Below, piece by piece: positions 31,051 to 33,561 of a stretch of 44,105 nucleotides of DNA. The notes under the pieces were generated by a model that saw only the letters and a list, made by a program, of their open reading frames with translations, did not search any database and was not told the origin of the DNA. The DNA comes from Planctomycetota bacterium (GTDB lineage Bacteria > Planctomycetota > Phycisphaerae > Phycisphaerales > SM1A02), in assembly GCA_014381555.1 (NCBI GenBank), contig JACNLO010000064.1, positions 15,912-60,016 of the forward strand. The letters are read 5' to 3'. Made by a program: the position numbers and the translations under genes. The first letter of the stretch is position 1; every line of letters starts with the position of its first letter.

Positions 31051-32545
31051 ATTAATCCTCGCATTGTGTTTGAACGTTCAAGAGCCACCCATCATCTCCC
31101 CACCGAAGGTGCAGCTTCAGTTTTCAGTTACACACGATGGTACTTCTGGCGAATCTATAGATGGCCGTTTGTATGTCATGCTTACAAAAGGCAAATTGCC
31201 TTTGATTGGAGGACCAAACTGGTTCAAGGCAGAACCGTTTTTTGCACTGGACGTGAAGGATTGGAAGGCAAACGCACCACTTGTTCTTGACAAAACGGCA
31301 GATGCAATGGTGCCAATGTTGGAGGTGGAAGATGCAACTTGGAAAGCAGTTGCGGTTTTTCGCAGGGAGAACGACCAATCACGTTTGGCAGTCCCGGGCG
31401 GTTTGTATGGTGAACCGATCTCATTTGATGGAAGCGGCAAAGATTCGGGCAACATTCCATTAACAGTGAACACCCCCGTGCCTGAACGAGAATGGAAACC
31501 GCACAAAAATCTTCGGCTAGATGAAACGCCAAGTAAACTTCTGAGTGATTTTTACGGCCGAGAAATTTTACACGGTTCGTGTGTCATAGTACCCGACAAC
31601 TATGACCCAAATAGAGAAGAGCCATATCCAGTTATGTATTGGATTGGTGGATTTGGAAGCGACCATTATGGGGGTCGGTACATGAAGATGCTATTTACTG
31701 GATCAGATTATGACGATCAAATTTGCCGTGTGGTTCTAAATGCGCAAGCACACACGGGACATCATACGTTTACAGACTCTGCGAATAATGGCCCAAGAAT
31801 GACTGCGTTAATGAGTGAGTACATTCCTTACCTTGAAGAGAAATACAACCTTGGTGGTATCAATAAAAAAAGATTTTTGGCAGGTCACTCTTCTGGTGGT
31901 TGGACTGCAATGTGGTTACTTATTAACTACCCAGATTTTTTTGCTGGTGCCTGGCCACTAGCTCCAGACCCACTGGACTTTCATTATTTCCAAACGCTTG
32001 ATTTGTACGAAGAAGATGCAAATATGTACATCGATAGTGAAGGAAGCGAAAGGCCAATTGCCAGAATGGGCGCACGTCCAGTTTTGTTTGCAAAGAAATT
32101 TGTCGCAATGGATGACGTGATAAAAGATGGTGGGCAAATTGGTTCATTTGAAGCGGTTTTTAGTCCAAAAGGCGAAGATGGTCGCCCAGTCAAAATGTTT
32201 AACCGTGAAACTGGTGCGGTTATTCCTGAAGTTGTTGAACATTGGAAGCAATACGATATTCGAAAGTTCCTTGAAGAAAACTGGAATACATTAGCACCTA
32301 AGTTGTCGGGAAAAATAAACATTATTGCAGGTGGGCTTGACACGTTTTATCTTGAAGATGCAGTAATTGCCCTTCAGGAATTTTTTGAAGAAAAAGATTT
32401 CAATGCTATGATTCGAATCGTTGAAAATGGGGACCACGGGTCTGTATTTCGTGGCACTGTCATTCGAGAGATGGACGAATCTATTGCAAAAAAACTTGAT
32501 CTTCCAAACATTCAAGATAAAGCATCTAAGCCAAAAGATGACTGA
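31043..32545 (+). CDS. Putative exported esterase, alpha/beta hydrolase fold
   Basis: Protein of 500 residues. A short hydrophobic start (MIELILALCLNV) may be a weak signal peptide. About 25-150 is a beta-rich domain of unknown type with VQLQFSVT and GRLYVML; the rest is an esterase D/feruloyl-esterase-like hydrolase. The nucleophile elbow is GHSSGG with S283, preceded by PVMYWIGGFGSDHYG, and the likely histidine is in ENGDHGSVF near the end. The acid may be in GGLDTFYLED. The substrate is unknown. It overlaps ctaA by eight bases and the next gene by eight, so it is cotranscribed with haem A synthase although there is no evident functional link. Confidence 0.75.
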   Translation: MIELILALCLNVQEPPIISPPKVQLQFSVTHDGTSGESIDGRLYVMLTKGKLPLIGGPNWFKAEPFFALDVKDWKANAPLVLDKTADAMVPMLEVEDATWKAVAVFRRENDQSRLAVPGGLYGEPISFDGSGKDSGNIPLTVNTPVPEREWKPHKNLRLDETPSKLLSDFYGREILHGSCVIVPDNYDPNREEPYPVMYWIGGFGSDHYGGRYMKMLFTGSDYDDQICRVVLNAQAHTGHHTFTDSANNGPRMTALMSEYIPYLEEKYNLGGINKKRFLAGHSSGGWTAMWLLINYPDFFAGAWPLAPDPLDFHYFQTLDLYEEDANMYIDSEGSERPIARMGARPVLFAKKFVAMDDVIKDGGQIGSFEAVFSPKGEDGRPVKMFNRETGAVIPEVVEHWKQYDIRKFLEENWNTLAPKLSGKINIIAGGLDTFYLEDAVIALQEFFEEKDFNAMIRIVENGDHGSVFRGTVIREMDESIAKKLDLPNIQDKASKPKDD

Positions 32546-32978
32546 GCGTGTAATTCAATCCAAGTGTAATGATTCACGCCTTGATGCAATTACAAAGACG
32601 CTCCTGCAACAGGCGACTCAATGCGTTACAACCAAGGGTGTGTTTAATTTAATGTTAAGTGATTCCGAAGAACTCGATGCCGTATATGCTCGGTTGATGT
32701 ATGACCCAGATCTTCGAGCAATGCCTTGGAATGAAACGCAACTATGGTTTTTGCGTGGTGAAGAAGAGTCTATAGTCCTACATTCTGGAATCCCAGAGGA
32801 CAACGTGCACAGTGGAACCACACAAGAACAGATTGATTGCATGGTTATTGCGTTGAGTGATATTGATGCTGTCGGTGAAGATCTCAGAAGAGACTGTGTT
32901 TCTTTTTTAATTTATGCTAATAGTGATGCCCAACTCAATTGGTCTAATTGCGGCGTTGCTCACTTGTTTTGCATCTAA
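32538..32978 (+). CDS. Degenerate or short 6-phosphogluconolactonase-like protein
   Basis: Protein of 146 residues from the ATG at 32538; the frame continues upstream inside the esterase gene but that part is not counted. The stretch GVFNLMLSDSEELDAVYARL, then MPWNETQLWFLRGEEE and IPEDNVH follows the layout of 6-phosphogluconolactonase/NagB-like proteins, where SGGST, W-x-x-x-x-F-x-x-DER and a GMGxDGHTASLFP motif are expected. Here SGGS is replaced by SDSE, DER by GEE, and the GHTASLFP motif is missing; about 80-90 C-terminal residues are lacking compared with the usual 230-240. If the resemblance is real the protein is probably not a lactonase. It could be a structural remnant or a protein with another role. 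Confidence 0.45.
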   Translation: MTERVIQSKCNDSRLDAITKTLLQQATQCVTTKGVFNLMLSDSEELDAVYARLMYDPDLRAMPWNETQLWFLRGEEESIVLHSGIPEDNVHSGTTQEQIDCMVIALSDIDAVGEDLRRDCVSFLIYANSDAQLNWSNCGVAHLFCI

Positions 32979-33015
32979 AATAATCCGCTGGATCGTTTTT
33001 TCTTGTGTTGGTGGA

Positions 33016-33077
33016 TGGGGACAGATGTGGTGACAGATGGGGGGACAGATGGGGACAGTCCCCTGGGGACTGTCCCC
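33016..33077. repeat. REP-like palindrome copy A with a degenerate direct-repeat flank
   Basis: Bases 33051-33077 are GGGGACAGTCCCC, a single T, and its reverse complement GGGGACTGTCCCC: perfect 13-base arms. To the left, 33016-33050 holds three spaced copies of GACAGAT (within GGGGACAGATG-like units) that look like degenerate duplications of the left arm. It lies in the 145-base gap between convergent genes. Such strong GC-rich palindromes resemble REP/RAYT-type elements, but no transposase gene is present here. Confidence 0.85.
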
Positions 33078-33123
33078 ACGAAATTACTACAAAAGAGCCG
33101 TTTTTGGTTTGTGACAGGTGTTT

Positions 33124-33561
33124 TTATGTTTTTTTATGGGGACAGTCCCCTGGGGACTGTCCCCATAAAAAATCGGTGAGGATTTCGGATGCTGCAAGGG
33201 CGTCTCGAATTTTTTTCTTTTGTTTGTGCGTTTTGCCAGAACCTGAAAGCAGGCCCTCAGCAGCAGAACTTGTTAAGCGTTCGTCTTGGAAATGAATGTG
33301 CATTGCAGTTGCTTCTTCAAGTTTTGATGCAAATGCTTTTGTGATTTCAACACGCTGCCCAGGAGAGCCATCCATATTTAATGGAAGTCCGAAGACCAGT
33401 TCGTCGACACTGTGTTCTTCAACTATTTTGATGAGTGCGTCAATTAACCTATCTCCAATTGGTGTTTCTAATACGCAAACTGGTTGAGCAATCCGAAGTT
33501 CATCATCACCAATCGCAAGGCCTGTTCGTTTGTCGCCGAGATCGACAGCAAGATATCTCAT
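33124..33561 (-). CDS. ruvX: RuvX/YqgF pre-16S rRNA nuclease family protein with repeat-derived tail
   Basis: RNase H-fold protein of 145 residues related to E. coli YqgF, which processes 16S rRNA 5' ends and was also proposed as a Holliday junction resolvase. D7 in AVDLGDKRTG, the VFGLPLN motif and the DERLTS motif are present. After the family core (ends near ILTDFL, residue 132), the frame runs through a 27-base palindrome and reads WGQSPGDCPHKKT before TAA. The core would normally end about here, so 13 residues are supplied by the repeat. The gene overlaps manC upstream by four bases (ATG at 33561). Confidence 0.92.
   Translation of the reverse strand: MRYLAVDLGDKRTGLAIGDDELRIAQPVCVLETPIGDRLIDALIKIVEEHSVDELVFGLPLNMDGSPGQRVEITKAFASKLEEATAMHIHFQDERLTSSAAEGLLSGSGKTHKQKKKIRDALAASEILTDFLWGQSPGDCPHKKT
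33130..33172. repeat. REP-like palindrome copy B, inside the 3' end of ruvX
   Basis: The same 27-base core as copy A occupies 33138-33164. Here the flanks extend the symmetry: TTTTTTAT before and ATAAAAAA after, giving 21-base perfect arms around one T. The A/T flanks make it look like a bidirectional intrinsic terminator. It overlaps the last codons of ruvX, whose stop is at 33124-33126. Confidence 0.9.

Follow-up and report, generated by a model that had tools for sequence, protein, structure and literature searches.

In the parts of the cited papers considered here, classical REPs carry a GT(A/G)G head (PMC2817692). REPINs have a fixed length and variable, hairpin-forming spacers; in SBW25 the spacings are 71 and 110 bp and the elements are mainly extragenic, with 14 of 1,067 16-mers overlapping genes (PMC3116915). 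In TIRtrons, a Y1/RAYT-like ('TIRYT') gene lies between inverted repeats (TIRs), some of which share the motif GGGGWSAS; some TIRs are partly or wholly self-complementary, and they occur as dimers or clusters in moderately abundant families (PMC3733652). The same source reports intragenic REPs, REP-supplied stop codons, and REPs at most 20 bp from convergent gene ends. Rickettsia palindromic elements, 100–150 bp long, lie in frame inside genes (PMC3767692, PMC10969869).

We analyzed a stretch of 44,105 nt from a Planctomycetota bacterium, referred to as the window. At the 3' end of its ruvX gene lie two exact 27-bp palindromes, 33051–33077 and 33138–33164, separated by a gap of 60 nt. Each has the structure GGGGACAGTCCCC-T-GGGGACTGTCCCC, with twin 13-nt arms GGGGACWGTCCCC around one base, and is referred to as a doublet. 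The pair is, in all likelihood, a single copy of a mobile repeat that is REPIN-like and non-autonomous.

The repeat resembles each of the described systems in part. As in REPINs, inverted palindromes at a conserved spacing enclose a spacer of variable sequence, the whole forms a hairpin, and a RAYT-type gene is flanked by the same repeat. Unlike in REPINs, no GTAG-type head is present: no GTAG/GTGG or CGTC head is found beside the palindrome, and the profiles show mostly T before and approximately AYRAAAA after the doublet. The sequence GGGGACAG fits GGGGWSAS, and this motif lies in repeats flanking a RAYT-like gene, as in TIRtrons. In contrast to TIRtrons, each end here is a twin of two 13-nt palindromes, and several copies lie within genes, which is not described for TIRs in the part of PMC3733652 considered here. 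The earlier note called the palindrome REP-like; this holds as far as the repeat family and the RAYT-type gene between its arms are concerned, but not for the head, and the TIRYT motif fits instead. The intragenic REPs reported previously are of the GTAG or CGTC types, whereas the repeat here is of the GGGGACWGTCCCC type. One copy lies whole and in frame in a protein-coding gene, as Rickettsia elements do; the likeness to them is one of description, and the present repeat differs in having a flanked transposase gene, only one whole element in frame, and a different host, a congener with the element being a Planctomycetota bacterium and not a Rickettsia or Wolbachia.

The palindrome pair at the ruvX end

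The features of the locus are as follows.

32538–32978, + strand: convergent neighbor gene, start picked at ATG 32538; conserved beside ruvX in congeners
32975–33005, no strand: weak two-way hairpin, flanked on each side by an A/T run (z −1.8 and −1.5), a candidate host terminator for the convergent genes; absent from the terminator scan
33017–33050, + strand: stuttered partial arms, 12-nt units of the GGGGACAGATG type, outside doublet A
33051–33077, no strand: doublet A, two 13-nt arms around one base
33078–33137, no strand: element spacer, 60 nt, rich in A toward one end and in T toward the other; contains the ruvX stop
33124–33561, − strand: ruvX (Holliday junction resolvase RuvX/YqgF), 145-aa ORF; PF03652, TIGR00250
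33127–33165, − strand: element-encoded RuvX tail WGQSPGDCPHKKT, residues 133–145, past the end of the Pfam match (residue 132)
33138–33164, no strand: doublet B, read through by ruvX
33166–33174, − strand: host flank GATTTTTTA, present in ruvX of congeners G055 and G398; complementary to the element inner flank at doublet B

RuvX residues 1–132 match positions 1–132 of the 134-position profile PF03652, and the protein is also matched by TIGR00250. Its C-terminus reads ...SEILTDFL-WGQSPGDCPHKKT. A copy of the element would have inserted into the very short interval that separated ruvX from its convergent neighbor, right after the ...DFL codons, and would have displaced the original last codons and stop codon of ruvX. 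Translation would then pass the palindrome by read-through and end in the A/T-rich spacer, adding WGQSPGDCPHKKT. The tail is presumably roughly neutral, given its position beyond the conserved RuvX domain. The palindrome is present and exact, and the tail comes from the copy that is read through, as had been proposed; the stop codon (33124–33126), however, is part of the A/T-rich spacer, immediately inward of the palindrome, and not of the palindrome proper. The same peptide had been expected on the opposite strand, and WGQSPGDCPH is encoded there in a + strand ORF (33005–33295).

The genome contains 26 perfect 27-mers, doublet A among them. None of the 26 distinct doublets contains a stop codon in any of the six frames, so that read-through is allowed. 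When folded as a single RNA strand, the window element forms one long hairpin (−70.7 kcal/mol, z −10.8).

The repeat family and the arm-flanked transposase gene

The 13-base arm GGGGACAGTCCCC occurs 109 times, in 27 clusters, in the whole genome (1,994,086 bases, 91 contigs), a high copy number for one genome, as for REPINs and RAYT-associated REPs. The chance expectation for GGGGACWGTCCCC in 1.994 Mb, at the base composition of the window, is 0.025 sites (~0.03 when rounded), and a reversed control pattern has no occurrence in the same genome. All 109 arms were read, in 25 stretches. The assemblies are drafts, and contig ends fall at some of the repeats (L048). A complete series of doublet, spacer, and doublet is present in 17 elements, whose spacers measure 50 nt (eight elements), 51 nt (five), 60 nt (three), and 61 nt (one). 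When the gaps between all arms are considered, 24 fall in the range of 45–70 nt, and 22 of them are 50, 51, 60, or 61 nt long; the remaining two are 58 and 64 nt. The spacers are alike only in starting near AYRAAAA and in the mirror image at the end, and share little otherwise.

Rfam returns no match for the palindrome. A named genome collection, which may leave out records from the window's own genome, contains palindrome matches in three stretches, from the congener NIOZ-UU88 (coordinates identical to those of G400), a Steroidobacter MAG, and Metabacillus. Whole elements also stand in tandem at L053:1502-1732 and L185:1029-1293; the spacers are visibly diverged in L053 and near-identical in the congener G400, and the arms are mostly intact. 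A second repeat-like motif, GGTGCCTGTCCCC or a close variant, lies near the elements of L034, L043, L053, and L174 and may belong to another transposase. In L040, L047, L052, and L056, the gene immediately upstream of the element encodes a protein with a C-terminal DxxxDGxxxVTDLL-like repeat, which we take to be dockerin-like. In congener G055, a single arm (L184:992) lies within a tight hairpin, with GGACTGTCCCCTTTTGTGA and its reverse complement a few bases further.

The genome carries two Y1_Tnp genes, designated C48 and C13. The C48 gene (L047:3516-4151; Y1_Tnp, 56.7 bits) has full arms on both sides. It scores 79.4 bits against the NCBIfam model REP_Tyr_transpos (cut-off 80) and the C13 gene scores 83.7 bits; no arms are found around the C13 gene on its 6.6-kb contig. 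The 13 genomes of the genus contain ten Y1_Tnp genes in four genomes (G404 counted as G400, the coordinates being identical), and a protein is recovered for eight of the ten. Scanning up to 1.5 kb on each side of all ten, shortened in some cases by contig ends, finds full arms only beside the C48 gene. The search that the earlier note had called for, of palindromes and RAYT genes genome-wide, thus returns both a large repeat family and a RAYT-type gene flanked by its arms. The repeat is most likely mobilized by the Y1/RAYT-type transposase encoded at C48, a reading drawn from gene position. Two points count against this picture: the REP_Tyr_transpos score of the C48 gene falls just short of the cut-off, and congener G400 has seven arms but no arm-flanked transposase gene was found there.

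The palindromes could instead be intrinsic or two-way terminators for the convergent gene pair, their overlap with ruvX being incidental. In accordance with such a role, a mechanically called ORF of at least 70 aa stops inside or at most 25 nt from the arms in 12 of the 27 clusters, a single doublet has a folding energy of −26.7 kcal/mol, and in several spacers a small hairpin is present along with a T run. Doublet B together with its A/T flanks, which had been suggested as the terminator, forms an inverted repeat whose arms match perfectly over 21 nt on either side of a single base. However, a GC stem followed by a T run is not found at the window element: neither doublet has a T run after it in either direction, and the scan shows no terminator-like site inside the element, so the suggestion is not borne out for this copy. 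Other copies occur between divergently transcribed genes (L045, L046) and within an MFS gene, and most congeners have no palindromes at ruvX. We therefore regard termination as an unlikely account, and continue with the mobile repeat.

Gene ends and insertion sites in relatives

Exact arms are found in three of the 12 congeners (seven in G400, two in G398, and one in G055). Two further congeners have 14-base arm variants only (two in G079, one in G399), and neither arms nor such variants are found in the remaining seven. Across the family, nine of 121 genomes, including the window's own, contain any exact arm.

RuvX was obtained from 11 of the 12 congeners (none from G118), and the WGQSP tail is absent from all 11. 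In ten of them RuvX ends in ...DFL followed by one to seven unrelated residues: AQL (two), QK, N, L, HSN (two), ATRSNKQ, ATRTHKQ, and GTRNHE. Among the 30 ruvX loci of the family, the tail occurs only at the window's own; it is absent from the 28 tails read at the 29 other loci (two cut short, and one locus giving none). A protein similar to the convergent neighbor is present at ten of the 11 congener loci. The FL codon and the convergent stop are 187 nt apart in the window, 146 nt in G079, and 17, 17, 33, 26, and 2 nt in G055, G398, G400, G401, and G402, respectively; in G109, G399, G097, and G018 the two genes overlap (−14), and G403 is left out of this comparison. Capture of the palindrome as the RuvX C-terminus, as the earlier note had it, agrees with these ends, since relatives without the element end RuvX differently. 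The same tail without a palindrome, which the note had named as evidence against capture, is seen in none of them. In congener G401, a different perfect palindrome, TTAATTATCCCTAGGGATAATTAA, lies at the ruvX 3' end (L126).

The eleventh congener is G079, whose RuvX tail GEQSPTCNEN is read from GGGGAACAGTCCCC at the same site, a related tail with a decayed single arm. Congener G398 has one arm (L183:1070) which, judged by eye, lies at the place orthologous to L046:1476-1579, between the same two divergent genes; this suggests a shared or a repeated insertion. With the G079 remnant, it indicates that the insertions may be old or that sites may be hit repeatedly. An ancestral insertion common to the window's genome and G079 is plausible but not proved: in a tree of four proteins, the branching around the two is not resolved (support 66 and 60). 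In this tree, gaps take the place of genomes without a match and of the MFS of G402, G097, G018, and G399, the GNAT of G401 and G018 (the latter partial), the DUF456 of G400, and the ruvX of G055 (split over contigs).

The tail might also be a functional extension under selection, regulatory or protein-binding, rather than a neutral by-product. G079 has only two 14-base variants and no detected Y1_Tnp gene, yet its ruvX still runs through the decayed arm at this site with the frame unchanged, which speaks for selection. It is a single remnant case, however; the core domain is complete without the tail, and the residues at this position vary in length and sequence across congeners. A selected function is very unlikely on this evidence, and the neutral reading is retained.

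Of the 27 clusters, four inside genes (ruvX, DUF456, GNAT, and MFS) were compared with relatives. The DUF456 protein reads ...SPVLF-WGQSPEHATGDRPHKT..., with 42 residues counted from the W that follows the hyphen, and in congeners it stops at APFF, APFV, APWL, TPFV, SPFT, or SPFVGG (11 of 12 tails read; G400 left out). The GNAT protein ends in ...MRRANPQTN-WGQSP*, and in ten of 11 congeners it ends otherwise, in MQLIIP, MRFITP, MRHVG, and similar (G018 is cut at a contig end); GNAT ends are variable among congeners regardless, and the tails of G109 and G403 are equally long. Replacement of the gene end by the element is supported for ruvX, and likewise for DUF456 and GNAT, as judged from the aligned ends. 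In the tRNA-queuosine mannosyltransferase (QTMAN) gene, L037:547-1626, a single arm lies in frame near the C-terminus.

In the MFS gene, the reading frame passes uninterrupted through a whole element of 105 bp, spacer included. The arm is read here as TGG GGA CAG TCC, the frame that is also used in all three captured tails. The insert is absent in the seven congeners aligned: its site comprises 12 nt in G055, G398, and G400, 30 nt in G079, and 72 nt in G118, with no exact arm, and a protein alignment shows it to be missing from G403 and G109 as well. Four further congeners match the MFS protein only as two pieces around the insert, and G401 gives no match. The MFS loops of G079 and G118 match the arm at 12 of 15 positions (0.7% of background windows) and 11 of 15 positions (2.9%), respectively, which is suggestive only.

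The MFS gene of congeners lacks the spacer as well as the palindromes, which shows the spacer to be part of the element. We had considered that the spacer is host DNA caught between two independent insertions, and the same comparison rules this out. Mobility of the element is likewise inferred from presence and absence at such sites. Strict targeting of stop codons (T|AA), for which the common frame of the captured tails and the MFS copy would speak, was rejected, as other copies lie at most ~20 nt past a stop without splitting it; it is kept as a lead.

Spacers of 50/51 and 60/61 nt with variable sequence would also be consistent with arms that are sites for a DNA-binding protein. The difference of one helical turn between the two classes of spacer would then reflect protein contacts and not transposition. 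Against this, a fixed length with a variable spacer has already been published for REPINs (in the part of PMC3116915 considered here), the MFS comparison shows that the unit arrives whole, and the 109 copies here stand against zero to seven exact arms in the 12 congeners. Protein sites are very unlikely as an explanation, and a mobile repeat remains our reading.

Flank complementarity at the element ends

At the 34 ends of the 17 complete elements (clusters without two full doublets were left out), the host bases just outside the doublet tend to be complementary to the element bases just inside it. Over the first seven positions, 116 of 238 are complementary, compared with 92 in a control that sets each host flank against the inner flank from the opposite end. 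Shuffles give a mean of 92.6 (sd 5.2), and none of 20,000 reaches 116. Uninterrupted pairing of at least 5 nt occurs at eight of the 34 ends, compared with none of 34 in the cross-end control and a mean of 0.58 (maximum 4) in shuffles; the remaining 26 ends have no complementary run of this length. At ruvX, GATTTTTTA is also present in G055 and G398, and the host flank is probably older than the element side.

In addition, the flank together with at least 4 nt of the arm is repeated just outside the element at seven of 53 ends for flank words of 4 or 5 nt and at five of 53 for words of 6 nt; the controls have means of 0.16–0.52 and a maximum of 3. In the window, this edge repeat is 33017–33050.

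The complementarity suggests either hairpin-templated rewriting or pairing-guided targeting. Template switching at hairpins extends or homogenizes inverted repeats, as described in parts of PMC7202029, PMC8794818, PMC8604942, and PMC3820800. It would explain both the flank complementarity and the edge repeats, whereas base-pair-guided targeting would explain only the former. We tentatively consider, as a possibility that we rate well short of probable, that the palindromes maintain and extend themselves, the replicating arms templating each other and the adjacent host DNA by template switching at the hairpin. Alternatively, the same data could arise if base pairing of the inner flank directs the element to its target. 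Guidance of this kind operates in IS200/IS605.

Intragenic REPs and REP-supplied stops are already on record in the part of PMC3733652 considered here, and the ruvX capture is an event of a known type; what was not expected is the flank complementarity. In literature on neighboring topics, where the term itself was not targeted, no report of it was found, and we make no claim that it is unpublished.

The locus provides a relative-checked case in Planctomycetota in which a transposase-linked palindromic repeat appears to rewrite gene ends and enter a membrane protein in frame. A GGGG-type repeat is thereby added to the reports on REPs of the GTAG/CGTC types and on Rickettsia elements. Self-templating, if true, would account for perfect arms with drifting spacers, a flipped central A/T, host flank copied inward, and stuttered partial arms. 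If flank complementarity is true in other families, it would offer a testable account of perfect REPIN arms versus diverging spacers, or of target choice.
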